64,000 nt of DNA from Acidobacteriaceae bacterium (GTDB taxonomy: Bacteria; Acidobacteriota; Terriglobia; Terriglobales; Acidobacteriaceae). Where the stretch lies: the NCBI GenBank assembly GCA_003134995.1, contig PLDC01000019.1:654517-718516 (forward strand), written 5' to 3'. The position numbers and the translations under genes were made by a program. Each line of letters starts with the position of its first letter. The stretch's first letter is position 1. Below, one piece after another: positions 28,775 through 50,795 of the stretch. The notes under the pieces were generated by a model. It was not told the DNA's origin and searched no databases. It saw only the letters and a program-made list of their open reading frames with translations.

Positions 28775-29776
28775 ATGAATTGGGCGGAACAAGTAGTTTT
28801 AGTGACGGGCGGGACGGGTTCGTTCGGGAAAAAGTTCGTCGAAATCATGCTGCGGGAATATCACCCCAAGCGGCTGGTGATCTTCAGCCGCGATGAACTC
28901 AAACAGCATGACATGCGCGCCGCGGGTTTCGATCATTCGAGCTTGCGGTATTTTATCGGCGACGTACGCGACGCAGGCCGGCTGCAGCGCGCTTTTGCCG
29001 GAGTCACGGTGGTGGTGCATGCGGCCGCGCTGAAACAGGTTCCAGCCTGCGAATACAATCCATTCGAAGCCATTCAGACCAACATCATGGGCGGACGCAA
29101 CGTGATCGATGCCGCCATCGATCAGGGCGTTGAGCGCATTCTCGCGCTGAGTACCGACAAGGCAGTGAACCCGATCAACCTGTACGGTGCGACGAAACTG
29201 TGCGCGGAAAAAATGTTCGTACAGGCAAACGCGTATGCGGGGACGCAGCAAACCCGCTTCAGTTGCGCGCGCTACGGAAACGTGGTCGGGAGCCGCGGCA
29301 GTGTAATCCCGGTTTTCCTCGAGCAGCGCAAGCGAGGTCGAATCACGATCACAGATCCGCGCATGACACGCTTCTGGCTCACGCTGGAACACGGGGTGCG
29401 TTTTGTGATTCGCTCGATCGAGCAAATGCACGGTGGAGAAATCTTCGTTCCCAAAATTCCCAGCATGCGTTTGGTCGATCTAGCCGAGGCCGTCGCTCCT
29501 GGATGCATGGTGGAATACATCGGTATCAGAGCCGGAGAGAAACTGCACGAGGTGTTGCTCTCTGAAGATGAAGCGCGCAACGCCGTCGAGTTGGATGAAA
29601 TATATATCATTCAGCCGTCGCATCCGTGGTGGAAGAGTGCAAACTGGGTTCAGGCTCGGGCTCTTCCTCAGGGCTTTCGCTACACCAGCGACAGCAACGA
29701 ACAGTGGCTGAGCCATGAGCAGCTCCAGGAATTGATTGAGCCCGGCGCGACGGCGGAGGCTCGTGTGCCGGCGTAG
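28775..29776 (+). CDS. pseB: UDP-N-acetylglucosamine 4,6-dehydratase, inverting (PseB)
   Basis: A 333-residue short-chain dehydrogenase/reductase that carries out the first step of pseudaminic acid synthesis: UDP-GlcNAc to UDP-2-acetamido-2,6-dideoxy-arabino-hexos-4-ulose. The NAD(P) site is TGGTGSFG (11-18); the active site is STDKAVNP (Asp128, Lys129) with YGATK (Tyr137, Lys141), the Asp/Lys version that marks inverting dehydratases. Full length for PseB. The start has gaggcagg ahead and a TATACT promoter. First gene of the nonulosonate operon. Confidence 0.95.
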   Translation: MNWAEQVVLVTGGTGSFGKKFVEIMLREYHPKRLVIFSRDELKQHDMRAAGFDHSSLRYFIGDVRDAGRLQRAFAGVTVVVHAAALKQVPACEYNPFEAIQTNIMGGRNVIDAAIDQGVERILALSTDKAVNPINLYGATKLCAEKMFVQANAYAGTQQTRFSCARYGNVVGSRGSVIPVFLEQRKRGRITITDPRMTRFWLTLEHGVRFVIRSIEQMHGGEIFVPKIPSMRLVDLAEAVAPGCMVEYIGIRAGEKLHEVLLSEDEARNAVELDEIYIIQPSHPWWKSANWVQARALPQGFRYTSDSNEQWLSHEQLQELIEPGATAEARVPA

Positions 29777-29871: not shown

Positions 29872-31083
29872 ATGCAGATAACGTCCAGCAAAGAACTGCT
29901 CGCCGTCGATGGCGGTACTCCGGTTCGGAGCACGCTTCTCCCTTACGGACGGCAATCGATTGAGGAAGATGACATCCAGAGTGTGGTGGATGTGCTGCGG
30001 TCCGATTGGCTCACCACGGGCCCGAAGGTCGGAGAATTCGAGGAAGCATTCGCGGCGCGGGTGGGAGCTAAGTATGCGGTGAGCTTCAGTTCGGGCACGG
30101 CGGCGTTGCATGGCGCTGCTTTTGCGGCAGGGCTCAAGCCGGGCGATGAAGCCATCACGACTCCCATGACGTTTGCAGCCACGGCGAACTGCGTGTTGTA
30201 TCAGGGGGCGACGCCGATCTTTGCGGACGTAAGCGCTGACACGCTCAACCTAGATCCGGAGAAACTCGCGGCGCGAATCACCGCACGCACGCGGGCGATC
30301 ATCGCAGTCGACTACGCGGGACATCCGGCAGACCTGGACGCGATTCTGGAACTGGGTGCGCGACATGGGCTCGTGGTGATCGAAGATGCGTGCCACTCTC
30401 TGGGAGCGGAGTACAAGGGACGCCGCGTTGGCAGCGTCGCGCACATGTCGGTCTTCAGCTTCCATCCGGTAAAACACGTGGCGACCGGAGAAGGTGGCAT
30501 GGTCACGACCGACCGCGCAGATTTCGCCGAATCGCTGCGGCGCTTTCGTAATCACGGGATATCCAGCGACGCGCGCCAGCGTCAGGCCGAGGGGCAGTGG
30601 TTCTACGAAATGGTCTTGCTGGGTTTTAATTACCGCTTGACGGATATTGCTTGTGCTCTCGGTCTCTCGCAGTTGAAAAAACTGGAGACGAATGTGGCAC
30701 GCCGCCGCGAGATCGCGGCTCGGTACACGAGAGCATTTCGCAGCCTATCCTGCGTGATTATTCCAAGCGTGCGCTCGAACGTGAATCCAGCCTGGCACCT
30801 GTATCCGGTTCGGATGAATCCGGCGCAGTTGAATACCGACCGGGCCCAAGTGTTCCGCGCGCTGCGAGCGGAGAACATTGGCGTCAATGTGCATTACATT
30901 CCTGTCCACCTTCATCCTTACTATCGCGACCGGTTTGGCTACCGGGGCGGGGAATACCCGGTGGCCGAGACAGCGTACGAGCAACTCATCAGCTTGCCGA
31001 TGTTTCATGGAATGAGCGACCAGGATGCGGATAACGTGATCGCCGCCGTAACCAAGCTTTGCGAGCACTACAGGAAAGCGTGA
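29872..31083 (+). CDS. pseC: UDP-4-amino-4,6-dideoxy-AltNAc aminotransferase (PseC)
   Basis: A 403-residue PLP-dependent DegT/DnrJ/EryC1 enzyme that aminates the PseB product at C4 using glutamate. The PLP lysine is Lys201 in HPVKHVATGEGG. SSGTAALHGAAFA is the phosphate-binding region, and EDACHSLGAEYKG holds the Asp that binds the pyridine nitrogen. The N-terminal 'PYGRQSIEEDDIQSVVDVL' is typical of PseC. Second gene of the operon, 95 bases after pseB. Confidence 0.93.
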   Translation: MQITSSKELLAVDGGTPVRSTLLPYGRQSIEEDDIQSVVDVLRSDWLTTGPKVGEFEEAFAARVGAKYAVSFSSGTAALHGAAFAAGLKPGDEAITTPMTFAATANCVLYQGATPIFADVSADTLNLDPEKLAARITARTRAIIAVDYAGHPADLDAILELGARHGLVVIEDACHSLGAEYKGRRVGSVAHMSVFSFHPVKHVATGEGGMVTTDRADFAESLRRFRNHGISSDARQRQAEGQWFYEMVLLGFNYRLTDIACALGLSQLKKLETNVARRREIAARYTRAFRSLSCVIIPSVRSNVNPAWHLYPVRMNPAQLNTDRAQVFRALRAENIGVNVHYIPVHLHPYYRDRFGYRGGEYPVAETAYEQLISLPMFHGMSDQDADNVIAAVTKLCEHYRKA

Positions 31084-31101: not shown

Positions 31102-31794
31102 ATGGGTTTGAAAACCACCAATGAGACAGAACAGGTCCGCACATGGAGCGGCGACTTCGGGCGCGAGTATACTGATCGCAATATTTACACGCCGGCGGAA
31201 CTGGACGAATTGTACCGCCGGAACTACGGTGTAAGCCGCACGGAGTTAAATCGATGCCTGCTGCAGGAAGTTCCCAGAGACGCGCGGATCCTCGAGGTGG
31301 GATGCAACATAGGCAACCAGTTGCTGCTTCTGCAGGAGATGGGCTTCCACAATCTGTGTGGCATCGAGATTCAGAGCTATGCCTTGGAGCGAGCCAAGGA
31401 GCGAGTTGAGGGCGCGGCCCTCACCCAGGCCTCGGTGTTAGCGATTCCTTATGCGGATCGGAATTTTGATTTGGTCTTCACGTCGGGAGTGTTGATCCAC
31501 ATTGCGCCCGCGGATTTGCCGACGGCCATGGATGAAATCCATCGCTGTGCAAAGCAATGGATATGGGGATTCGAATACTACGCGCCCGAGATGACGGAAG
31601 TGGCTTACCGCGGGCACGAAGCTTTGCTGTGGAAGACCGACTATGCCCGAAGCTACCTTGAGCGGTTTCACGATCTGGAGTTGGTGAGCGAAGATCGCAT
31701 GCGTTACCTCGACAACGAGAACGTCGATACTGCGTTTCTGCTTCGCAGAAAGGCTTGGCGAACCGTCCTGCGTACAGATCAGGGAGAAGCGTGA
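31102..31794 (+). CDS. pseudaminic-acid-associated methyltransferase
   Basis: A 230-residue class I SAM methyltransferase. ILEVGCNIGNQLLLL is the SAM motif and TSGVLIHIAP the motif II region. The N-terminal EQVRTWSGDFGREYTDRN and the WGFEYYAPE segment match the small family found only inside pseudaminic acid clusters. Whether it methylates the sugar precursor or a hydroxyl on the finished sugar is not known. It begins 18 bases after pseC and its stop overlaps the next start (GTGA). Confidence 0.88.
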   Translation: MGLKTTNETEQVRTWSGDFGREYTDRNIYTPAELDELYRRNYGVSRTELNRCLLQEVPRDARILEVGCNIGNQLLLLQEMGFHNLCGIEIQSYALERAKERVEGAALTQASVLAIPYADRNFDLVFTSGVLIHIAPADLPTAMDEIHRCAKQWIWGFEYYAPEMTEVAYRGHEALLWKTDYARSYLERFHDLELVSEDRMRYLDNENVDTAFLLRRKAWRTVLRTDQGEA

Positions 31795-32522
31795 GAATCG
31801 TTGCCATCATCCAGGCGCGTATGGGCAGCGCGCGCTTGCCCGGGAAGGTTCTCAAAGACTTGGGCGGCGACACGGTTCTGGCGAGGGTGGTGAATCGTAC
31901 GCGGCGCGCGACGCTGCTGAATGAAGTTGTTGTTGCCACTACTGTGTTGCCTGCGGACGACGTGATCGTCCGGGAGTGCGAGCGGCTGAAGGTAGCCTGT
32001 TTCCGCGGCGATGAGTTGGACGTCCTCGATCGATACTACCGAGCGGCGCAAGAATTCGCGGCTGACGTGATCGTACGAATCACGGCTGACTGTCCTCTTA
32101 TCGATCCGGAGTTGATCGACACTACAATTCGCGCAGGCCTCGACCAGAAAGCAGACTACGCGACCAACTCCTTGGTGTTAACTTACCCGCGTGGTCTGGA
32201 TGTTGAGATGTTCACCTCCGACGCCCTCGAGCGCGCCTGGCACGCCGCGTCGGAAGAACATCAAAGAGTACATGTCACGCCGTATTTGTATGAGAACCCA
32301 GAATTGTTCAAAGTAGTCTCGATCACCGACGAAGCGGATCACAGCCACTGTCGCTGGACTCTGGACATGCCCGAGGATTTGGAAATGATACGCGCGGTTT
32401 ACCAGCATTTTGGGAACCGGGACAACTTTCGCTGGAACGAGATACTGGATCTTATGGAAAACCAGGCCGAACTTGCTCTTCTGAATTCGCATGTACGGCA
32501 GAAGGCTCTGCGCGAGGGTTAG
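31791..32522 (+). CDS. spsF: SpsF-type cytidylyltransferase, probable nonulosonate activation
   Basis: A 243-residue nucleotidyltransferase. The start is GTG 31791, which overlaps the methylase stop and follows agggag. IIQARMGSARLPGKVL is the CTP-binding loop of the SpsF branch; true PseF/NeuA proteins carry IPARGGSK-type loops. DVIVRITADCPLIDPELID is also diagnostic. By position it should make the CMP-sugar from the PseI product, but this branch is poorly characterised and could activate another sugar. 26 bases precede pseG. Confidence 0.85.
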   Translation: MRIVAIIQARMGSARLPGKVLKDLGGDTVLARVVNRTRRATLLNEVVVATTVLPADDVIVRECERLKVACFRGDELDVLDRYYRAAQEFAADVIVRITADCPLIDPELIDTTIRAGLDQKADYATNSLVLTYPRGLDVEMFTSDALERAWHAASEEHQRVHVTPYLYENPELFKVVSITDEADHSHCRWTLDMPEDLEMIRAVYQHFGNRDNFRWNEILDLMENQAELALLNSHVRQKALREG

Positions 32523-32548: not shown

Positions 32549-33631
32549 ATGCCGACTGAAACCTTACTCGTCCGGGCCGATGCGAATCCGGAGATCGGCA
32601 TCGGGCATGTCATGCGCTGTGTGGCCCTGGCGCAAGCGTGGCGAGACGCCGGTGGCCGGGTTGCCTTCGCACTGGCTGCGGGCGCGAAGGAACTTGGACC
32701 GCGCCTTCGCGCCGAAGGAGCAGATGTCCTAGAGGTTTCCACTGAACCCGGCACTGCTGAGGACGCAGCCCAGACGGTCGAGTTATGCAGGAGATACAAA
32801 GCCCAGTGGTTGGTGCTTGATGGATACCATTTTTCGCGAGAATATCGCGAGAGTGTGAATGCAGGCACAACCCGTTTATTGCTGGTGGATGATCATGGAG
32901 AAAGTGCGCCCTACCAATGCGACGTAGTGCTCAACCCAAACCCTTTTGCTTCGGACGCCCTCTACGCGAGCCGCGGCGATCGACCTTGTTTCCTGGTGGG
33001 CCCGCACTACGCATTGCTGCGCCGCGAGTTCCTGGATTTTCCCAGGCAAGGTCCAAGTACTCCCACTACTGCGAAACGAATACTGCTAACGTTTGGAGGA
33101 GCCGATCAAGACAACGTAACGCTGTTAGTCCTCCAGGCCCTTGATGAGATCAGCGAACCTCGCCTCGAGATCACTGTTGTCATCGGCGCCAGTAATCCCA
33201 ACATGGAGTCGCTCGCGAAAGCAACCGCGAAGTCTTCCCATGCCGCCAGATTGCTGTCGAATGTGGGTAACATGCCCGAGGTAATTTCTAAAGCAGATTT
33301 GGCGATTTCAGCCGGAGGCGTCACTTGTTGCGAATTGGCGTTTATGAGAGTGCCGATGTTTCTCATCACCCTTGCCACGAATCATGAGGAGAGCGTTGAG
33401 GCGTGGGGTCGGGCGAAGGCGGCATGGGCAGGAGGCTGGTTCGACGTTTTAAAGAGAAAGTCTCTGTCTGAATCATTGCGGCGCGTGATCGGTGACGCGG
33501 AGTTGCGCCGTGAATTTGTCGAGAACGCCGCACGAGTGGTTGACGGAAAAGGGGCGCAGAGAGTTGTGGAGGGTTTGCGTTGCGCACAAGCGGGGGACAG
33601 ATCTTCTCCCAGCCGGGCGGGTCGGGAATGA
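32549..33631 (+). CDS. pseG: UDP-2,4-diacetamido-2,4,6-trideoxy-altropyranose hydrolase (PseG)
   Basis: A 360-residue GT-B-fold hydrolase that removes UDP from the bis-amino sugar before condensation. RADANPEIGIGHVMRC contains the active-site His, and LLVDDHGESAPYQCDVVLN and ISAGGVTCCELAFMRVP match PseG. Length is normal (340-360). The C-terminus overlaps the next gene (ATGA), suggesting coupled translation. Its specificity for the 2,4-diacylated sugar implies that an N-acyltransferase must act before it; none is obvious between pseC and pseG. Confidence 0.92.
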   Translation: MPTETLLVRADANPEIGIGHVMRCVALAQAWRDAGGRVAFALAAGAKELGPRLRAEGADVLEVSTEPGTAEDAAQTVELCRRYKAQWLVLDGYHFSREYRESVNAGTTRLLLVDDHGESAPYQCDVVLNPNPFASDALYASRGDRPCFLVGPHYALLRREFLDFPRQGPSTPTTAKRILLTFGGADQDNVTLLVLQALDEISEPRLEITVVIGASNPNMESLAKATAKSSHAARLLSNVGNMPEVISKADLAISAGGVTCCELAFMRVPMFLITLATNHEESVEAWGRAKAAWAGGWFDVLKRKSLSESLRRVIGDAELRREFVENAARVVDGKGAQRVVEGLRCAQAGDRSSPSRAGRE

Positions 33632-34380
33632 AAATCGCCATCTCGCAGCCCACTTATCTACCGTGGCTGGGTTTTCTGGATTTGATCGATCAGGTCGACA
33701 CGTTCGTCCTTCTCGACAACGTGCAGTTTGAGAAGCAGTCCTGGCAGCAGCGCAACCGTATCAAGACGCCTACCGGACTGCTGTGGCTCACGGTTCCTGT
33801 GATCTTTCGAGGCCGCCTTGGACAAAAAATACAGGAAGTCGAAATTCGCGATGCGGACTTTTCGCGTAAGCATTTGCGTGCCATCGAACTCAACTACAGC
33901 CATGCCCCATTTTTTAACGCCCATTTCCCGGCGCTATCCTCGATTCTTCAGGCATGCACTTCCGGGATGTCTCTGATCGATTTGAATCTGGATTTGCTGC
34001 AATGGGTGCTGAAGTTGCTCGGTATTGACACTCCACTGATAGCGGCATCTTCTCTTGGACGGGAAGGAAAGCGCACAGAGTTGCTGGCGAATATCTGTGA
34101 AAAGCTGGGGGCAACTCAATACGTTTCTCCGGTCGGCTCTGCGGAATATCTTCTTCGCGAAATGAACGTGCTCACCGACGCCGGAGTGGAGACCGTCTTT
34201 CAGAACTACAAACATCCTGAATATCGGCAATTGTTTCCGCCATTTATTCCGTTTGCCTCCGTCCTTGATTTGATTCTCAACGAGGGACCGAGTTCGCTTG
34301 CTATCATCCGAAGTGGGCGCGGGACGCCGTTCACGCCGGAAGAACTGTCGGCGAGAATTGCAGAAGCGAAACAGGCATGA
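33628..34380 (+). CDS. WbqC family protein (copy 1)
   Basis: A 250-residue protein starting at ATG 33628 (overlaps the pseG stop). ISQPTYLPWLGFLDLID, DNVQFEKQSWQQRNRIK and LTVPV are the defining segments of the WbqC family, found in O-antigen and nonulosonate clusters. The reaction is not settled to my knowledge; a role in acyl or amino-acyl decoration of an amino sugar has been considered for such genes. It overlaps pseI by ATGA. A related copy lies at 35490, with one gene between them. Confidence 0.85.
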   Translation: MKIAISQPTYLPWLGFLDLIDQVDTFVLLDNVQFEKQSWQQRNRIKTPTGLLWLTVPVIFRGRLGQKIQEVEIRDADFSRKHLRAIELNYSHAPFFNAHFPALSSILQACTSGMSLIDLNLDLLQWVLKLLGIDTPLIAASSLGREGKRTELLANICEKLGATQYVSPVGSAEYLLREMNVLTDAGVETVFQNYKHPEYRQLFPPFIPFASVLDLILNEGPSSLAIIRSGRGTPFTPEELSARIAEAKQA

Positions 34381-35441
34381 GCGAGGCCACACTGCAGATC
34401 GGGCAGCGAACGGTGGGAGCAGGCCATCCCGTTTACATTATCGCCGAGCTTTCCGCGAATCATAATCAGGATTTCGACCGGGCATTGCGCATCGTACACG
34501 CCGCCAAAGAGGCCGGTGCCGACGCCGTCAAGCTGCAAACCTACACGCCCGATACGATTACGATCCGCTCCGACCGCGAGTGTTTCCGCATCCGCGGAGG
34601 CACGCTCTGGGACGGCCGCACTCTGCATGATCTTTACGGAGAGGCTCACACTCCGTGGGAATGGCAACCGAAGTTGAAAGCCGCGGCTAACGATCTTGGC
34701 ATGGACTTGTTTTCCAGTGCTTTCGATTCATCGGCCGTGGATTTTCTTGAATCTATGAACGTGCCCGTGCATAAGGTGGCGTCGCCGGAATTGGTGGATG
34801 TGCCACTGATCGAAAAAATGGGCCGAACGGGCAAGCCTTTAATTCTATCGACAGGCATGGCGACCCTTGAGGAAATCGACGAAGCCGTTACGGCAGCTCG
34901 TAAGGCTGGGGCCTCGCAGTTGGCTCTGCTGCGCTGTACAAGTTCTTATCCAGCGCCACCAGAGGAGATGAATCTGCGCTCGATCCCTGATCTGACGCGT
35001 CGATTCGGCCTGCCGGTCGGGCTCTCGGATCACACGCCGGGCATTGCGGTGCCGGTAGCGGCAGTGGCTCTCGGCGCCGTGCTGATCGAGGAACACTTGA
35101 CGCTCTCGCGCGCGGAAGGCGGCCCGGACCACGCTTTTTCGTTGGAGCCAGAAGAATTTAAAACGCTGGTCGAGGCGGTCCGAATGGCTGAGTCGTCGCT
35201 GGGGCAGATTCAGTACGGACCAACCCCCCGCGAACTGAGCACGCTCGCCTTCCGCCGGTCATTGTTCGTCGTACGCGATATCAGAAAAGGTGAGCCGTTT
35301 ACGCCGGAGAATGTTCGCTCCATCCGCCCGGCCAACGGGCTTCACCCAAGGCATCTGTCTGAAGTTCTCGGTCGACAAGCAGTGCGCGATATCGAATGCG
35401 GCACGCCGTTGACGTGGGACTTTGTGGATCATTCCCAGTGA
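34377..35441 (+). CDS. pseI: pseudaminic acid synthase (PseI)
   Basis: A 354-residue NeuB-family enzyme that condenses the 6-deoxy-2,4-diamido-altrose with phosphoenolpyruvate. The barrel part has YIIAELSANHNQDFDRA and GADAVKLQTYTPDTITI; HKVASPELVDVPLIE and LRCTSSYPAPPEEMN follow. A C-terminal antifreeze/SAF domain (about 290-354) ends in LGRQAVRDIECGTPLTWDFV. All hallmarks are intact. The start overlaps the WbqC stop (ATGA). Confidence 0.94.
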   Translation: MSEATLQIGQRTVGAGHPVYIIAELSANHNQDFDRALRIVHAAKEAGADAVKLQTYTPDTITIRSDRECFRIRGGTLWDGRTLHDLYGEAHTPWEWQPKLKAAANDLGMDLFSSAFDSSAVDFLESMNVPVHKVASPELVDVPLIEKMGRTGKPLILSTGMATLEEIDEAVTAARKAGASQLALLRCTSSYPAPPEEMNLRSIPDLTRRFGLPVGLSDHTPGIAVPVAAVALGAVLIEEHLTLSRAEGGPDHAFSLEPEEFKTLVEAVRMAESSLGQIQYGPTPRELSTLAFRRSLFVVRDIRKGEPFTPENVRSIRPANGLHPRHLSEVLGRQAVRDIECGTPLTWDFVDHSQ

Positions 35442-35489: not shown

Positions 35490-36194
35490 ATGATCGTTTC
35501 CATCAATCAACCTGGATACCTGCCTTGGCTCGGCTACTTTCATCGGATTGCGGTTGCCGACGCTCACATTGTGCTCGATCACGTTCAGTTCGAAAAAAAC
35601 AGTTTCACCAATCGAAATAAAGTTCGCGTAAGTGAAGGTTGGTGCTGGCTCACGGTTCCTGTCAGAACGGCTGGCAAGTTCGGCGACCTTCCCATCCATG
35701 AGCTGGAAATATCGCGCGAGAAACCCTGGGCATCCAAGCACTGGGAGACGTTGCGATTGAATTATTCCCACGCGCCTTTCTTTGACCAACACGCTGGCTT
35801 TTTTCGGAGTGTCTACTCTCGCACCTGGCTTAAGCTCGCGGATCTCATGCGTGAGGTGACTGGTTACCTGCTCGAAGTCTTCAGCATTCACACGAAACTC
35901 TATTTCAGTTCGCAGATGAAGGGCCGCGGGAAAAAAGATGAACTGCTCGTGAACCTGTGCCGCGAACTCGGGGCCACGGGTTACCTCTCAGGCCCGCAGG
36001 GCAGGAACTACCTGCGGGAGGAGTTGTTCGGTGAGCACAACATCGCCGTCCGATATGATGATTACCATCACCCTGTGTACTCGCAGGTGTATCCGGGGTT
36101 TGAGCCCTTTATGGCGGCGATCGATTTGTTGTTCAATGCGGGTCCTGCAAGCCGCGAAATTCTATTGAAAGATCAAAAATGGGTCGCGTTATGA
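35490..36194 (+). CDS. WbqC family protein (copy 2)
   Basis: A 234-residue relative of copy 1: VSINQPGYLPWLGYFHRIA, DHVQFEKNSFTNRNKVR and LTVPVRTAGKFGDLP align with ISQPTYLPWLGFLDLID, DNVQFEKQSWQQRNRIK and LTVPVIFRGRLGQKI. C-terminal halves also match (RGKKDELLVNLCRELGATGYLSG versus REGKRTELLANICEKLGATQYVS). Two WbqC genes in one operon are unusual and suggest two related modifications. Its stop overlaps the next start. Confidence 0.85.
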   Translation: MIVSINQPGYLPWLGYFHRIAVADAHIVLDHVQFEKNSFTNRNKVRVSEGWCWLTVPVRTAGKFGDLPIHELEISREKPWASKHWETLRLNYSHAPFFDQHAGFFRSVYSRTWLKLADLMREVTGYLLEVFSIHTKLYFSSQMKGRGKKDELLVNLCRELGATGYLSGPQGRNYLREELFGEHNIAVRYDDYHHPVYSQVYPGFEPFMAAIDLLFNAGPASREILLKDQKWVAL

Positions 36195-36871
36195 ATGTGC
36201 TGGTCGTTGCCGCCCACCCCGATGACGAACTGCTAGGATGTGGTGGAACCGCGGCCCGGCTGGCGCGCGAGGGGCACTCGGTGTACATGGCGATACTGGG
36301 CGAGGGAATCACGTCGCGGCATGCCCAGCGCTCGAGTGCCGATCCCACGGAACTCACCAGCTTGCACGATTGCAGCCAGCGCGTTGCGGATCTGCTTGGG
36401 GTGAAGGAACTGTCTCTGCACGGATTGCCTGACAACCGCTTTGACACACTTCCTTTGCTGGATGTGATCAAGCTGGTGAAGAGTTTGGTGGAGCGCTGGC
36501 GCCCGGCTGCGATTTATACCCATCACGGTGGCGATTTGAATGTTGACCACCAGGTAGTGAGCCGCGCCGTCCTCACGGCGGCGCGCCCTATCGAAGGTGG
36601 TTCGGTTCGGGAGCTTTACATGTTTGAGATCGCATCTTCCACGGAGTGGGCGTTTCAGCAATTCGCGCCCGTGTTCAAGCCGAATGTTTTCGTGAACATC
36701 GAGTCCACATTGTCCTTGAAACTGGAAGGCATGCTGCAATACGAAAGCGAAGTTCGAAAGTTTCCGCATCCTCGGTCGCCGGAAGCATTGACGGCGATTG
36801 CTCAGCGATGGGGCAGCGTAGTGGGCTGTAAGGCGGCGGAGGCTTTTGAGGCAGTAATGCTGATTCGCTGA
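36191..36871 (+). CDS. PIG-L family N-deacetylase
   Basis: A 226-residue zinc hydrolase. AAHPDDELLGCGG carries the family's zinc/catalytic HPDDE (residues 9-13) and HHGGDLNVDHQVVS the second metal motif. PIG-L enzymes remove N-acetyl groups from GlcNAc-type substrates. The start at 36191 uses the ATGA overlap with WbqC; ATG 36179 is the alternative. A deacetylase within a pseudaminic acid operon is not part of the standard pathway and suggests that an acetamido group is swapped for another acyl group, or left as a free amine. Confidence 0.88.
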   Translation: MNVLVVAAHPDDELLGCGGTAARLAREGHSVYMAILGEGITSRHAQRSSADPTELTSLHDCSQRVADLLGVKELSLHGLPDNRFDTLPLLDVIKLVKSLVERWRPAAIYTHHGGDLNVDHQVVSRAVLTAARPIEGGSVRELYMFEIASSTEWAFQQFAPVFKPNVFVNIESTLSLKLEGMLQYESEVRKFPHPRSPEALTAIAQRWGSVVGCKAAEAFEAVMLIR

Positions 36872-36888: not shown

Positions 36889-38643
36889 TTGGAACGAGAG
36901 ACGGTATTGAAGGTTCTTCTATTACATCCCGAAGACTCACCCTGGGACGATGCCTGTTGCCGCTCGCGCTGGGATCTCATCGTCGATCTGGGTTTCGCAA
37001 GTTCCTATACCTACGAGGAATGGAGCCGCCGATCGGGTGCGCGAGTTCTCAGCATTTACCAGTTAGATGGACAGACGGATGGCTATCGCTGGGTCAGCCA
37101 ATTTCTCGAGCGGGGAAGAGGGCGGCTCCTGGATCGCATGGGGTTGGACTGGTGGGAAATTCTCGGGGTCTTGAGCTATCACGATCTGCGCGGGTTCTAT
37201 CTTCTGCAACAGTTGCGGCGCGAAATCGCTAGCGGGTGTGAGGTAGTGGCTAGCCGTCAGCATCTTTTCACGAGACTTCTCGAACAGGTCCTGGACCGCC
37301 CTGTGCGCTATCTAAAGATCGATGGTCGCGGTCCCACGCATACCGTTGCTCGCATGCTGCGCTCCGCCCGAAAGTTGCGCCCTGCGCAGATTGCTGAGAT
37401 CGCGTTCGATAAGTGGGACATGGATTACCGGGTTCGGCGTCACCTGACCACGCACAAACGGGCAAAGCTGACGGGTCCCGCGGTATTGTTGCCTTCCGCG
37501 TACTCGAATGTGACGCGATCTGTGCTCGCCTACGCCGCGCAGTTACCGCATAGGCGATTTCTGTTAGCGACCACTCGCCGCAGCGCGGTGCCGGCTCGCG
37601 TTCCCGACAATGTAACGGTTGTTCCCTTGTCCGCCTACGCCGCGCCTTCCAGCGCTACTCACGAACAGACCGTCGAGCTCAGAAACGCGTGGGAGGAATT
37701 CCGGCGCACGATGCTGCCGGAGGTAGACGAATTCCTCATGGCGGCGAATGCCGGCCTTTGGGGTTATTTTCCAGCGCATCTGGAACATGGCTTGCGTCTT
37801 CGAGAAGCCTGGAAGCGCTTACTGGAGTCTGAGCCGGTGAAGGGTGTTTTGTGCGGGGATGACCTCAATTACCACACCCGCTTGCCGCTGATTCTGGCGC
37901 ACGGCAGCGGTCTTAACGCGGCATACTGCAGCCACGGCGCTCTCGATGGTGGATTTCTCTTCAAAATACCGTTTGCGGATTCCTATCTGGTAAAAGGCGA
38001 GATGGAAAGAGACTATCTGCAACGTGCCAGCGCCATCGAGCCGGAGAAAATCTGCCCGGGAGCGCCGGGAAACAACATGGCTGCAGGTCAAGGCGATCAC
38101 CGCAGCGGAGCGTTAGTTTTTTTTTCCCAACCGTACGAGGTCGAAGGTGGCCGCGCCGACGAAATCTATCGCGAACTGTTGCCCCGCCTCTGGCGCGCCG
38201 CACACAGAAGCGGACGGAAGATGATCGTTAAGCTGCATCCATTCGAAAGCAAGCAGGCTCGAAAAGCGTTGGTAGCGTCGATTCTGTCAGAAGTCGCGCA
38301 CGATCAAGTCGAGATCGTCAGTGGAGTGCCCCCAGAAGAGATCATGTCGCGCACATGGTGCGGCATAACGGTCGATTCCAGTGTCGCTGTGGAATGTGCT
38401 TTGCGGCAGATACCGTTTTTCTTGTGTGGCTGGCTGGACTTCATGGGCTTGGGTTATCTGCAACAATTCGCGCGATTCGGAGTGGCCCAGGTACTAAACT
38501 CGCCAGAGAGCATTGATCAGATCCCCGAGATGGTCGCCGGACACCGCTCTCTTCAGTCGACGGACCGGATCTGGCATGAAGCGGATCCTGCCCAGTTGGA
38601 TGAGATCATGTTCGGAACCCGGCAAGTGCTCCATGCCGCCTGA
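36889..38643 (+). CDS. GT-B-like protein, candidate nonulosonate transferase
   Basis: A 584-residue protein I cannot assign to a named family. No membrane segment is visible. The C-terminal half has a CDP-glycerol/capsule-synthesis-like pattern: AAYCSHGALDGGFLFK, SYLVKGEMERDYL, MIVKLHPFESKQ and GITVDSSVAVECALRQIPFFL, i.e. the H-G, K-x-HP and D-S-S-x-x-E-A steps of sialyl-, Kdo- and capsule-type transferases. The N-terminal half (1-200) is not recognised. Position after the Pse genes suggests it moves the activated nonulosonate; this is inference. The start is TTG 36889; TTG 36907 is possible. Confidence 0.55.
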   Translation: MERETVLKVLLLHPEDSPWDDACCRSRWDLIVDLGFASSYTYEEWSRRSGARVLSIYQLDGQTDGYRWVSQFLERGRGRLLDRMGLDWWEILGVLSYHDLRGFYLLQQLRREIASGCEVVASRQHLFTRLLEQVLDRPVRYLKIDGRGPTHTVARMLRSARKLRPAQIAEIAFDKWDMDYRVRRHLTTHKRAKLTGPAVLLPSAYSNVTRSVLAYAAQLPHRRFLLATTRRSAVPARVPDNVTVVPLSAYAAPSSATHEQTVELRNAWEEFRRTMLPEVDEFLMAANAGLWGYFPAHLEHGLRLREAWKRLLESEPVKGVLCGDDLNYHTRLPLILAHGSGLNAAYCSHGALDGGFLFKIPFADSYLVKGEMERDYLQRASAIEPEKICPGAPGNNMAAGQGDHRSGALVFFSQPYEVEGGRADEIYRELLPRLWRAAHRSGRKMIVKLHPFESKQARKALVASILSEVAHDQVEIVSGVPPEEIMSRTWCGITVDSSVAVECALRQIPFFLCGWLDFMGLGYLQQFARFGVAQVLNSPESIDQIPEMVAGHRSLQSTDRIWHEADPAQLDEIMFGTRQVLHAA

Positions 38644-38688: not shown

Positions 38689-40461
38689 TTGCGCATAGTG
38701 GTGCGGGAGGAGATTCCGGAAGACCCGGAGTTGCGACGGTCCTGGAACGAACTGGCCCTGCGCGTGGAGCGTCCGGAGGTTTTCTACACCTATGAATGGG
38801 CGGTCGCCGTTCAACGCGCCTATGCGAATTCTTCGAAACCGTTCATAATTCTCGCCTACGAAGACGAGTTGCTTGTCGGCCTGGTTGCGCTGGCCTGGCA
38901 AAACACTAGGCCTCGCGGAGTCGCCTTTCTTACGGGCAGTACTGCGGACTATTGTGATTTTTTGAGCGAGCCGGGCAGGCGGCAGGAAGTTGTGGAGGCG
39001 GTTTTTACTGAGCTGGCAAACAGGAACATCAGTAAGGTTGTGTTGGCGAATCTGCCGGCAGATTCTTCCTCTGTCGCGGCGATTTCGGCCGCCGCTTCGA
39101 GCCGCCAATATCATCTGCACTTCCGTCAGGGTTATCTTTGCGCGCGCGTGCTAATAGGTTCTCCGGAAGAACGCACTGCGCTGAAACAGGCGACGAGCGG
39201 GAAGAAGAAGCTGCGGCGCTATCTGCGCGACTTGGAAAAGAAGGGTAAAGTTTGCTTCCGGCATGATGCGCAGTGGGACCATGTCGAACCGATTCTGCAG
39301 TCTTTCAACCGGGCGCACGTTGCTCGCTTTCTCATGACCGGGCGAATCAGCAACCTGACTCGACCGGAACGACGTACGTTCCTGTATGAGTTGGCTCGTG
39401 AATTGTGTCGCGCCGGAGCACTCGCCGTCAGCCGTCTGCTAGTGGATGAAACTGCTGCGGCCTGGAACTACGGATTCCAGTTTGCTGGAAGTTGGTTCTG
39501 GTACCAGCCTACAGTAAACAGCAACTACGAAGACCTTTCTCCGGGATATTGCCTTCTCGCGAAGATCGTGGAGTCGGCTTGTGACCGTTCCGACATCGAG
39601 GTCGTTGATCTCGGATTGGGAGCGGAAGATTATAAGTATCGCTTCGCGACCGTCGAGCGCCAGACTCTGTATCTCGTATTGAACAAGTCATTTTACGACC
39701 ATGTTCACGCGGTTGTGCGCGATAGCGCAGCCAAGGTCGCTAAAGCTTCGCCTAAGATCGAAAGCTTTCTGCGAGAAGTCATTTCGCATTTCGCAAAGAT
39801 GAAGGTGCGTCTTCGCGAAACCGGTTTCGCGGATATGTTGAGGTCGGCCTCGCGGCAGATTTCGCGTTCGTTTTACTCCTTCGAGGAAGTGCTTTTCTTT
39901 GGCTGGACCGCCGGAGCCGAGAATTCCGCAGAATCTCGCGGTCTGACATTGCGTAAATTCGATTCCGATCTATTGGGGCTAGCCGCCATGACCTACGTGG
40001 ACGACTCAGCCACTCTCGATTATCTGTTGCGCTGTGCCCCACGGCTGCGGTCGGAGGGAGACTGCGGATTCGTATTGCTCAGCGCCGATGGTATTCCCGT
40101 CCATTTTTGCTGGGCGAAGGATTTCGAGGGCTTTAGAATCCCGGAACTAGAGCGGACTCTACAGGCGCCTTGCGCGGACGCGGTAATGATATTCGATTGC
40201 TTTACTCCAGCCTCAGTCCGGGGCCGTGGATTGTTTGCATGCGCAATAGCAGCCTTGGCAGATCAGTTGAATGCCGAGGGCAAAACGCCGTGGATGTTCA
40301 GCGCTGCATCAAATCCAGCCGCGCTGCGAGGCATCAAGAAATCCGGTTTCGCTTACAAATTCACTCTAGGGCGCAAGAAATTCTTTTTTCATCAGGAAGT
40401 GAAGGACTCGATTCCTTCGCCCGATCCTGCGAATATCGCTAGCTCTGTATCGGCTCCTTAA
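38689..40461 (+). CDS. double GNAT-fold protein (CelD/FemX-like + second GNAT)
   Basis: A 590-residue fusion. Residues 1-360 form a CelD/Acetyltransf_6-type module (YTYEWAVAVQRAYANS, LTGSTADYCDFLSEPGR, WNYGFQFAGSWFWYQPTV, SPGYCLLAKIVESAC, EVVDLGLGAEDYKYRFA). Residues about 400-565 form a second acetyltransferase with a CoA-binding turn (FTPASVRGRGLFACAI) and NPAALRGIKKSGF. The start is TTG with ggagaag ahead. The N-terminal module is closely related to the 368-residue protein at 59005. As the only GNAT in the operon, its second domain is a candidate replacement for PseH. Confidence 0.8.
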   Translation: MRIVVREEIPEDPELRRSWNELALRVERPEVFYTYEWAVAVQRAYANSSKPFIILAYEDELLVGLVALAWQNTRPRGVAFLTGSTADYCDFLSEPGRRQEVVEAVFTELANRNISKVVLANLPADSSSVAAISAAASSRQYHLHFRQGYLCARVLIGSPEERTALKQATSGKKKLRRYLRDLEKKGKVCFRHDAQWDHVEPILQSFNRAHVARFLMTGRISNLTRPERRTFLYELARELCRAGALAVSRLLVDETAAAWNYGFQFAGSWFWYQPTVNSNYEDLSPGYCLLAKIVESACDRSDIEVVDLGLGAEDYKYRFATVERQTLYLVLNKSFYDHVHAVVRDSAAKVAKASPKIESFLREVISHFAKMKVRLRETGFADMLRSASRQISRSFYSFEEVLFFGWTAGAENSAESRGLTLRKFDSDLLGLAAMTYVDDSATLDYLLRCAPRLRSEGDCGFVLLSADGIPVHFCWAKDFEGFRIPELERTLQAPCADAVMIFDCFTPASVRGRGLFACAIAALADQLNAEGKTPWMFSAASNPAALRGIKKSGFAYKFTLGRKKFFFHQEVKDSIPSPDPANIASSVSAP

Positions 40462-40495: not shown

Positions 40496-42091
40496 ATGAA
40501 GGCAAACTTCAACGAGGCCGCTGACTCACCGCCGATTACGCCGCCCGGCGCGGAGACTGAAGTGCTTGACCGTGAATTCGGGCGTACCCTCGGCCAAATA
40601 TCCCGGCACTCTGCAGTGTTCTTTGCCGGCACGCTCTTCACCATGGCGGCGGGCTATCTCGTCAAGATTTACGTGGCCCGCGTACTCGGTGCCGAACAGT
40701 TGGGACTCTATGCCCTCGGCATGACGCTGGTGAGCCTCACGCAACTGTTCGGAACGTTGGGCTTGCACGGAACAGCCGCACGCTACGTCGCCGTTTATAA
40801 AGCGAAAGGGAATTGGAATGCGTTGCGCGGACTCCTGACCCGGAGCGTGGGCATCGTAGTCTTCCTGAACGTGGCGCTCGCTTTTGGCCTGATTTTCTAC
40901 GGAGGCTGGATCAGCCGGAATCTTTACCATGCTCCCGATCTGTCCCAGTATCTCCCTCTTTTTGCAGCACTATCGGTTCTCGGCGCTCTCAGCGTTTTTT
41001 ATTGCCAGGTTCTCGCGGGATTCAAGGAGATAACGAAGCGCACAGTCATTACGAACTTCGTAGGAAGTCCGCTGGTGATTGCTCTGACGGTTTTGCTGCT
41101 GGCTTTGGGCACGGGCATGTGGGGCTACCTGTCGGCGCAGATCATCAGTAATGTGGCCGTGGTCACGTTGCTTGTAGTGGTGGCCTGGAAGCTTACTCCC
41201 GCACCCGCTCGCTTTTCATTCTCGGCTTTGCCACCACTCGACTCGGACGTCAAATCCTTTACTGCCGCTTTTTTTGGGATGAACGTTGTCGATTTTCTCT
41301 CAACGCAGGCTGACAAAATAATTCTCGGACTTTATCTGAATGCTCGCGTCCTGGGAATTTATGTTCTTGCCTCCACGCTGTCGGCTTTTATTCCGATCAT
41401 CCTGCAATCGGTCAATCAGATTTTTGCCCCGGTGATTGCGGATTTGCACGCGCAGGGTCGGCAAGACGTTTTGGAGAAGCTTTTTCAGACTCTCACCAAG
41501 TGGATTCTCGGCCTAACGCTTCCTCTGGGCTTCGTCATGTTCGTTTTTGCGCTCCCGCTGATGCGTATCTTCGGGCCGGACTTTGAGGCAGGCCGGCCCG
41601 TGCTGGTCATCGGCGCGGTCGGGCAACTGGTGAATTGCGGAGTCGGTTCGGTTGGCTACCTTTTGCTGATGTCGGGAAACCAGAAGCGGCTAATGAAGGT
41701 CCAGTTCGCCATGGCAGGAGTTTCTGTTCTCATGAACGTCGCGCTTATTCCGCTCCTCGGCATAGTGGGAGCCGCTATAGCCGCCGCCGTCGTCAATGTT
41801 GGGCAGAATCTTTGGAATCTTTACGAAGTGCGCAAGGCGCTGAAAATTTTTCCTTATAATCGGGGCTACTATGCGCTGCTGATTCCCACGGTGTTCACGG
41901 CGGTTGCCGTGACTTTGTTGCGCTTGTGGACAGCTGCGCTCGCCCATCAATGGCTTGTTATTCTGCTGGCATTGGCTCTGGCGTATGCACTGTTCGGAGG
42001 CTTTTCCATTGCATACGTGCTCGATGCGGATGATCGAATGATTGCTCGAACTGCATGGTTGAAGCTGCGCGGTATGCGAAAGAAAGGGTAA
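40496..42091 (+). CDS. wzx: Wzx-type oligosaccharide flippase
   Basis: A 531-residue inner-membrane protein with about 14 membrane segments of the polysaccharide-transport (MOP/PST) family. SAVFFAGTLFTMAAGYLVKI and LGAEQLGLYALGMTLVSL are the usual first helices, and FFGMNVVDFLSTQADKIILG the mid-protein motif. It would flip the lipid-linked repeat unit to the periplasm. It starts 35 bases after the GNAT gene; the N-terminal tail of about 35 residues is cytoplasmic. Confidence 0.92.
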   Translation: MKANFNEAADSPPITPPGAETEVLDREFGRTLGQISRHSAVFFAGTLFTMAAGYLVKIYVARVLGAEQLGLYALGMTLVSLTQLFGTLGLHGTAARYVAVYKAKGNWNALRGLLTRSVGIVVFLNVALAFGLIFYGGWISRNLYHAPDLSQYLPLFAALSVLGALSVFYCQVLAGFKEITKRTVITNFVGSPLVIALTVLLLALGTGMWGYLSAQIISNVAVVTLLVVVAWKLTPAPARFSFSALPPLDSDVKSFTAAFFGMNVVDFLSTQADKIILGLYLNARVLGIYVLASTLSAFIPIILQSVNQIFAPVIADLHAQGRQDVLEKLFQTLTKWILGLTLPLGFVMFVFALPLMRIFGPDFEAGRPVLVIGAVGQLVNCGVGSVGYLLLMSGNQKRLMKVQFAMAGVSVLMNVALIPLLGIVGAAIAAAVVNVGQNLWNLYEVRKALKIFPYNRGYYALLIPTVFTAVAVTLLRLWTAALAHQWLVILLALALAYALFGGFSIAYVLDADDRMIARTAWLKLRGMRKKG

Positions 42092-49361: not shown

Positions 49362-50795
49362 ATGAAAAATGCATCCAAGCTTTTCGGACTGCTAGCAATC
49401 CTGGTTATGGCGGTGCTGTTGTTTGCCGTTGCTGAAGCACGTCCAGCCTATTTCGCCAATGTCTCCTATTTGGAGGCTCTCCTTCTGCTGGAAGTGATGG
49501 TAGTCGCCGTCTGGCACTATGAAAGATGGTTTTTCCTGGGCATGATGCTCGTTTTTCTGTGGGCGGGAACTGATTTGCCCTTGGCCGGAGCCGGAAATCG
49601 AGGCCGCTGGGTCTTTCTCGCCGTCGGTGCCCTAGTCGGAATCGTTAAGTGGCTAAAGCGGGACATGCGGCGGCATTTCACGGCTATCGATCTCGTAGCC
49701 TTGCTGTGCGTGGTGTCAGCGGCAGTTTCTTCTCTGGTTTCCACTCGCGTCGAAATGTCGTTGCTGAAGTCCTCGAGCCTTTTGCTTATTTTTTTGTATG
49801 GAACCAGTGGCGCGAAGTTAGCAGTGGCTGGCCGGGAGAGCAGTTTCTTTCTCGGATTGCTGACTTCTTGTGAAGTGGTTAGCTATTTGAGCGCGTTTGC
49901 TTATGTGGTTTTGCATTTCGAATTGTTCGGCAATCCCAATTCTTTGGGGGCCGTGATGGGAGTAGTCGCCGTCCCCGTCTTGTTGTGGGGTGTTCTGAGC
50001 ACCGCCGACCGGCAAGTGCGCTTTCGCAGGAGTATCGCTCTCTGTCTTGCCTCGTACCTGCTCTATTTGTCTGTTTCAAGAGCCGCTATGCTGGCTTGCG
50101 CGGTGGCGGTGACACTAATGTGCGTTGCATTGCGCCGCCAGGTTTTGCTCGTTAAGGGAGCCGCTGTGTTGATGTTCCTTATCGCCATAATTGCCGTCGC
50201 GCAGCCCGGACGCTTCGACATGCTGGTTTCTTCATTCACGGAAGATTTGATTTACAAAGGGAAACCGCAGATGGGAATCCTCGGTTCCCGGCAATCTCCC
50301 TGGCAGGAAACCTACGATGTCATCAGAAAAGATAGGAATTACCTGTTTGGTGTGGGATTCGGAACCAGCGCAGCCGAGCAGGAGGGTGCAAGCAGCGGCC
50401 TGATGTTCAGAACTTCTGGCGGAGCGGTTCGGGAGCATGGCAACAGCTATCTGGCTCTTGTGGAATACGTCGGCCTGCTAGGAGTTGTTCCGTTTCTGGT
50501 TTTGCTGATTCTGGTGTTGCGTCAGATTCGCCGCGGCTGCTCCCTTATGTGGCGTACTCGCGATCCTCGGCATTACGTAATTCCGCTAGTCATGGTTTGC
50601 ACGGCAGGTCTCGTTCATGCTTTCTTTGAGGACTGGTTGTTCGCCGTCGGATTCTACCTCACCGTTTTCTTCTGGAGTTGTGTGTTCGCTCTTGCGGAGT
50701 TGCAATTCGAGCAGGCCCCGGTGCCAGCGATGATCAACCGGACTTGGACGCAGATTCCCGTGAACACACAGGTTCCGTTGTCTCCCACGCGATGA
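49362..50795 (+). CDS. second O-antigen polymerase/ligase-type membrane protein
   Basis: A 477-residue protein with about 12 membrane segments of the Wzy_C family. GNPNSLGAVMG, LYLSVSRAAMLA and REHGNSYLALVEYVGLLG are family motifs, and the large periplasmic loop lies before the last. It is only distantly related to the ligase at 23437. Two such genes in one locus fit one polymerase and one ligase, which cannot be told apart from sequence. Confidence 0.85.
   Translation: MKNASKLFGLLAILVMAVLLFAVAEARPAYFANVSYLEALLLLEVMVVAVWHYERWFFLGMMLVFLWAGTDLPLAGAGNRGRWVFLAVGALVGIVKWLKRDMRRHFTAIDLVALLCVVSAAVSSLVSTRVEMSLLKSSSLLLIFLYGTSGAKLAVAGRESSFFLGLLTSCEVVSYLSAFAYVVLHFELFGNPNSLGAVMGVVAVPVLLWGVLSTADRQVRFRRSIALCLASYLLYLSVSRAAMLACAVAVTLMCVALRRQVLLVKGAAVLMFLIAIIAVAQPGRFDMLVSSFTEDLIYKGKPQMGILGSRQSPWQETYDVIRKDRNYLFGVGFGTSAAEQEGASSGLMFRTSGGAVREHGNSYLALVEYVGLLGVVPFLVLLILVLRQIRRGCSLMWRTRDPRHYVIPLVMVCTAGLVHAFFEDWLFAVGFYLTVFFWSCVFALAELQFEQAPVPAMINRTWTQIPVNTQVPLSPTR

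Follow-up and report, generated by a model that had tools for sequence, protein, structure and literature searches.

Pseudaminic acid (Pse) is a bacterial sugar resembling sialic acid. The synthesis of pseudaminic and legionaminic acid (Leg) is well mapped; to our knowledge few transferases are known for either. Which protein transfers Pse is the question raised by a locus of a soil bacterium of the phylum Acidobacteriota, analysed here in a window of 64,000 nucleotides (the whole stretch of DNA under study). The original prediction had placed an unassigned protein just after the Pse synthesis genes, and NCBIfam matches do put pseB, pseC, pseG and pseI upstream of it.

28775..29776, + strand: pseB (TIGR03589, E 3e-148)
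29872..31083, + strand: pseC (TIGR03588, E 2e-147)
31755..32522, + strand: cytidylyltransferase, pseF-like, predicted to make the CMP donor (PF02348, E 5e-36; TIGR03584 below cut-off)
32549..33631, + strand: pseG (TIGR03590, E 8e-65)
34377..35441, + strand: pseI (TIGR03586, E 9e-144)
36907..38643, + strand: putative CMP-pseudaminate glycosyltransferase, 578 aa (homologue-based start, frame listing)
40496..42091, + strand: Wzx-type flippase (PF01943, E 6.5e-23)
49362..50795, + strand: Wzy/O-antigen-ligase-type membrane protein (PF04932)

The locus and its gene

Upstream of the gene the order is pseB, pseC, a methyltransferase, the cytidylyltransferase, pseG, a WbqC-family gene, pseI, a second WbqC-family gene and a PIG-L deacetylase, while downstream a 590-residue Acetyltransf_6 protein is followed by the Wzx-type flippase, a sulfatase-family protein, and then GT4 enzymes with the Wzy/ligase-type protein. 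A Wzc-like chain-length/ATPase protein lies upstream on the opposite strand. The locus is of the Wzx/Wzy type for surface polysaccharides, and its CMP-Pse pathway is complete or nearly so. No other protein scanned from pseB to the Wzy-type gene showed a match to any known family of sialyl- or nonulosonate transferases.

Several features of the operon stand apart. The cytidylyltransferase (31755-32522) is scored higher by KdsB models than by PseF, with TIGR03584 far below its cut-off. Two WbqC-family genes and the PIG-L deacetylase lie within the pse operon (33580-34380, 35490-36194 and 36179-36871). A stand-alone PseH-type acetyltransferase was not seen in this operon, and one relative has a GNAT-like gene beside its synthase (L021:863-1360); a change in the N-acylation of the sugar is possible in the window pathway. 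In the 590-residue protein (38689-40461) the first half is an Acetyltransf_6 (GNAT-like) domain, and a second GNAT domain is possible; the protein is conserved near the transferase gene in many relatives.

The 584-residue frame of the original prediction (36889-38643, + strand; 584 codons counted from TTG) is real, with the conserved start placed about six codons after the listed opening, at TTG 36907, by homologues that begin at the equivalent of codon 7. A purine-rich GAACGAGAG lies upstream of this TTG, from which the protein has 578 residues and from which all residues are numbered here. Homologues of the same length are 34-56% identical over the full length, N-terminal part included, which puts coding beyond doubt. 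The gene is single-copy in its own genome. Its predicted domains and motifs are as follows.

36907..37461, + strand: N-terminal Rossmann-like alpha/beta domain and helical linker, residues 1-185 (separate model)
37471..38061, + strand: GT-B N-terminal half, residues about 189-385, probable acceptor side (model; side by analogy with GT-B sialyltransferases)
37858..37869, + strand: D318-D319-x-N321, candidate counterpart of D/E-D/E-G (general base) (alignment, 32 rows)
37933..37938, + strand: H343-G344, invariant in both clades (alignment)
38062..38640, + strand: GT-B C-terminal half, residues about 386-578, probable CMP-donor side (model; HMM match to SiaD, 5wcn)
38230..38250, + strand: K442-L-H444-P445-F-E447-S, HP motif, CMP phosphate binding by analogy (alignment; PMC2169525)
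38377..38382, + strand: S491-S/T492 motif (alignment)

Predicted fold and conserved motifs

An AlphaFold2 model built from 15 homologues (mean pLDDT 84, pTM 0.84) folds residues 189-575 into two facing Rossmann domains with the topology of the GT-B superfamily, as had been proposed, rather than into an unrelated fold. The model has 188 PDB matches at E <= 0.001, those listed all having GT-B-type folds, and many GT-B entries align with residues 189-575 at Z 13.8-16.1. UDP-GlcNAc 2-epimerases give the best structural rows (Z up to 16.1; NeuC is also listed), MurG reaches Z 15.1, and the polysialyltransferase entries 5wc6 and 5wcn lie at Z 14.1-14.3 (for the Mannheimia enzyme 5wc6, Z 14.3 and rmsd 4.0 over 292 residues at 15% identity). 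With rows within about one unit counted as tied, and epimerases and MurG scoring at or above the polysialyltransferases, the fold supports GT-B and names no donor.

Residues 1-185, predicted alone (pLDDT 88, pTM 0.72), form a small Rossmann-like alpha/beta domain with a helical linker. This part is conserved within the family, where M1, D10, W22, D27, D76, D168 and K169 are invariant, and it carries no recognised identity, in keeping with the earlier reading: Foldseek returned no match with E <= 0.001. Naming the domain by its fold was rejected, the best VIA-align score (Z 6.3, HepE) and the lower ones behind it being within the range of chance.

The motifs quoted in the original prediction are genuine, though slightly inexact. 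H-G and K-x-HP are present (HGALD 343-347 and KLHPFES 442-448), whereas the supposed DSS-x-x-EA step actually reads DSSVAVEC (490-497), that is, DSS-x-x-x-EC. Across 32 aligned sequences from two clades H343, G344, H444, P445, E447 and S491 are invariant and residue 492 is Ser or Thr. Residues 318 and 319 are each acidic in 31 of the 32 rows; residue 319 is Asp in the window protein, Glu in some relatives and, as the exception, Asn in L045. The D/E-D/E-G and HP motifs are common to GT38, GT52 and GT80 (Freiberger et al., PMC2169525), and in the meningococcal polysialyltransferase NmB-polyST the motifs of E153 and H278, 125 residues apart, matter for activity (PMC2169525). D319 and H444 are separated by the same 125 residues (124-132 in nearly all main-clade rows). 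The third position of the acidic motif is Gly in one of the 32 rows, the window protein reading DDxN. The sialyltransferase HP motif of the C-terminal domain is found as H444-P445 in 32/32 rows and aligns with that of SiaD by HMM.

In retaining Kdo transferases the nucleophilic Asp is carried by a QxxxD motif (PMC12887879). The QxxxD of GT99, GT107 and GT140 is absent from the window protein and occurs scattered and unaligned among the 32 sequences. The acidic pair and HP spacing shared with NmB-polyST, together with the lack of a conserved QxxxD, make inverting, GT38-like chemistry the better guess from sequence.

That the protein matches no named family holds for Pfam and NCBIfam, neither of which gave the window protein a match over cut-off. 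The closest Pfam model is the alpha-2,8-polysialyltransferase family PF07388 (12.3 bits, E 0.12); as this is below the curated cut-off of 23.3 bits, the window protein is no GT38 member at the sequence level. PF07388 scores relatives down to E 2e-4. Most relatives match DUF6716 (PF20471, a putative glycosyltransferase; best 7.9e-5), which gave no match to the window protein and did not exceed its 27-bit cut-off in any of the relatives' 101 genomes, and some match TIGR04396 weakly (3.3e-4, below cut-off). A literature search found no paper on DUF6716, nor an established function for it or for TIGR04396/TIGR04326, and one on Acidobacteria and pseudaminic acid found nothing relevant. The family profile, searched against the PDB, picked the IKLHP segment of SiaD (5wcn) weakly, at E 0.78, over profile positions 396-449. 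Two tRNA methyltransferases ranked above SiaD in that search were set aside as chance matches to a GLDWWE segment. A PDB search with the single sequence gave one match, at E 1.5, which was irrelevant. The window protein's own genome has no match to PF01973 (MptE-like/Maf), Capsule_synth PF05159 or PF07388; no PF07388 match was found in 247 genomes of the phylum, and plasmid records gave no match.

Homologues and their linkage to nonulosonate synthesis

With the family alignment as query, a scan of 84,980 species, each represented by one genome, found 38 loci; every one lies in a metagenome-assembled genome of Acidobacteriota. The scan was keyed on two conserved peptide patterns, and more distant relatives outside this phylum are possible. 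In 26/38 loci a pseI/neuB-family gene is found no more than about 5 kb away, usually with pseB, pseC and pseG, and such a gene is present in 14 of the 16 loci that have 10 kb on both sides. Eight of the 12 loci lacking a nearby synthase run into a contig edge less than about 4 kb away, on one side or both (L017, L026, L031, L032, L038, L045, L046 and L051); the others are L028 (with an in-frame TGA), L037, L040 and L044. Genome searches for 11 of the 12 (all but L017) located a synthase elsewhere in seven, L040 and L044 included, and found none in the genomes of L037, L028, L045 and L051. Homologues therefore sit mostly beside pseI or neuB-type genes, as the transferase reading had anticipated, and not mostly outside such clusters.

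Co-occurrence follows the same pattern. Among 101 genomes a pseI/neuB-family gene is found in 27/29 with a clear homologue and 12/72 without (Fisher p = 4e-13), and within the window protein's own genus in 24/25 with and 3/20 without (p = 2e-8), these p-values overstating certainty by treating related genomes as independent. The three exceptions in the genus (G018, G021 and G038) bear a distant sister gene instead. Since kinship inflates the p-values, the stronger argument is that linkage recurs in different gene orders, with genes on opposite strands in L029, L042, L050 and L053. The window locus, the neighbourhoods and the co-occurrence all display the genetic linkage expected of a CMP-Pse transferase.

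Sister genes in G015, G018, G021 and G038 (L058, L055, L056 and L057) share 17-18% identity with the window protein, yet hhalign shows clear homology (E 1e-11); a profile built from these four has the window protein as sole match in the window's own genome (E 1.3e-7). In G018 the neighbours of the sister gene are a PseF/NeuA-type cytidylyltransferase and genes of LegB, LegC, NeuC and NeuB type; the other three contigs carry some of these genes. Such gene sets are as expected for legionaminic acid. Weak Capsule_synth (PF05159) matches also occur in the sister clade. The tree splits main and sister clades, and places L017, L018 and L019 closest to the window protein. NeuB-type synthases appear at several separate places in the main clade, L018 and L019 included, so the donor is not readable from clade alone, and clade as a sole predictor of Pse versus another nonulosonate was rejected. 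The locus L060:1123-8077, like L019 and L018, encodes PseB, PseC and PseG that closely resemble the window proteins, but its synthase is of NeuB type; it also has an additional SDR-like gene and codes for a 555-aa protein whose first part is a cytidylyltransferase. These loci may make a different nonulosonate isomer.

Some homologues depart from the general arrangement. An intact solitary homologue lies beside chemotaxis-like genes (L037:10001-11776) in a genome without a detected pseI/neuB gene, and may be an orphan, have changed function or reflect an incomplete assembly. Another, in G039 (L059:7978-9711, equal to L028:1307-3040), is solitary and carries an in-frame TGA, and no synthase was detected in its genome, a picture that fits decay after pathway loss. 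Several relatives, at L017:438-3332 (equal to L002), L022:10001-12847 (equal to L005) and L021:2897-5353, encode a fusion protein in which a polysaccharide deacetylase (NodB, PF01522) is joined to the C-terminus of the transferase. In L018 and L060 the two genes are separate, that of the deacetylase coming directly after the transferase gene and overlapping its 3' end; the window has no such deacetylase. This coupling may hint at a HexNAc acceptor. A 701-residue frame in G047 (L076:9139-11241), with weak DUF6716 and Capsule_synth matches, may be a nonulosonate or Kdo-type transferase of a different kind; its contig also bears a NeuB-family match with an in-frame stop.

Proposed function and family

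The predicted GT-B fold, the linkage to pseI/neuB and a sequence signature of CMP-sialic or CMP-nonulosonate enzymes uphold the reading of a GT-B transferase in a nonulosonate operon. The protein is most likely, on sequence and model, the CMP-Pse transferase of the surface polysaccharide pathway. More specifically, we hold it quite probable that it is a cytoplasmic GT-B transferase that uses a CMP-nonulosonate, here CMP-Pse, and places the nonulosonate on a sugar of a lipid-linked repeat unit. From the fold prediction, conserved motifs, gene linkage and genome co-occurrence obtained here we infer donor identity, inverting chemistry, the general base, a lipid-linked acceptor and a role for the N-terminal domain. 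The neighbouring pse genes would supply CMP-pseudaminate, and the nonulosonate would be passed in the cytoplasm to a sugar of the growing lipid-linked repeat unit. Export of the unit would then fall to the Wzx flippase, and its polymerisation or ligation to the locus's own Wzy-type protein. CMP would be held by the C-terminal Rossmann half through His444-Pro445 and the Ser491-Ser/Thr492 step, with Asp319 (Glu in some relatives) from the acceptor-side half as the putative general base, and inversion would take place at C2 as in the GT38, GT52 and GT80 sialyltransferases. Acceptor or partner binding is a possible role of the additional N-terminal domain.

A variant of this explanation differs in chemistry: the CMP-nonulosonate would be transferred with retention, as by GT118 KpsS1 or by the Kdo enzymes GT99, GT107 and GT140. 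KpsS1, a relative of WbbB and KpsC, transfers Pse (PMC12887879), the HP motif is shared, and the sister clade has weak PF05159 matches; the window protein itself, however, has no PF05159 match, and QxxxD, which carries the nucleophile in the Kdo enzymes and may be dispensable in GT118, is not conserved in the 32 sequences. We regard retention as unlikely. Less likely still, the protein might be a GT-B transferase that takes a UDP- or GDP-sugar as donor and adds a neighbour of Pse in the repeat unit, leaving Pse transfer to an unrecognised protein. UDP-sugar enzymes do stand among the fold neighbours at equal or higher Z, and the GT4 enzymes imply that the repeat unit has other sugars, but the invariant HP motif with its acidic pair 125 residues before, the similarity of several relatives to PF07388, the co-occurrence of the gene with a nonulosonate synthase and the legionaminate-type clusters of the sister clade all argue against this reading.

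Two further readings concern the reaction itself. Polysialyltransferases are the closest named sequence relatives, and a GT38-like enzyme might build a poly-nonulosonate chain; a Wzx/Wzy-type locus with several glycosyltransferases points to a mixed repeat unit instead, making polymerisation very improbable. The top structural rows, UDP-GlcNAc 2-epimerases at Z 16.1 with NeuC also listed, would suit a GT-B-fold protein that is no transferase, such as a sugar-nucleotide 2-epimerase or a hydrolase of the Pse/Leg pathway, yet Epimerase_2 (PF02350) is absent from the matches of family members and each pathway already has its hydrolase, PseG in the window and one of NeuC type in the sister clade; we give this the least credence, and consider it extremely improbable.

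Compared with known systems, the CMP-Pse transferase proposed here belongs to an already known kind, the GT-B nonulosonate transferases, and resembles GT38 in predicted fold and sequence motifs. It shares with the GT38 polysialyltransferases (PF07388; SiaD 5wc6/5wcn) the GT-B fold (by prediction), an aligned KLHP and the 125-residue spacing that separates an acidic residue from HP in NmB-polyST, and would likewise use a CMP-nonulosonate. In contrast to GT38 it falls below the Pfam cut-off, has an extra N-terminal domain of about 185 residues and DDxN for D/E-D/E-G, and sits in a mixed-polysaccharide locus. The candidate D/E-D/E pair together with the HP motif also recalls the GT52 and GT80 bacterial sialyltransferases, as described in PMC2169525, whose families nonetheless gave no Pfam match to the window protein. 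The Kdo enzymes GT99, GT107 and GT140 have the CMP-ulosonate donors, GT-B fold and HP motif (PMC12887879) proposed or predicted for the window protein, and GT118 KpsS1, compared by description only, is a retaining transferase using Pse (PMC12887879), the probable donor sugar here; unlike these, the window family has no conserved QxxxD and the window protein no Capsule_synth match. DUF6716 (PF20471) and the TIGR04396/TIGR04326 surface carbohydrate biosynthesis proteins match some relatives weakly, all below cut-off, and leave the window protein unmatched.

What is new is a family named by no database searched, nearly always alongside nonulosonate synthesis genes; the protein is best filed, as judged against Pfam and NCBIfam, in an unnamed family of GT-B nonulosonate transferases. 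Opinion is evenly balanced on a broader proposal, that the protein founds a new glycosyltransferase family, one of three-domain inverting nonulosonate transferases so far seen only in Acidobacteriota, with a mostly Pse-linked clade, a Leg-linked sister and several main-clade lineages that seem to have switched nonulosonate, a NeuB-type synthase taking the place of PseI, while keeping the same transferase. Known cases are few: B. subtilis has no member of the four sialyltransferase families, its Leg transferase being unknown as of 2020 (PMC7439481), and the Pse enzyme KpsS1 needed a new family in 2024, as cited in PMC12887879. If the family is coherent, with Pse- and Leg-linked clades, its members would be candidates for enzymatic Pse transfer and would form a natural series for studying change of donor choice.
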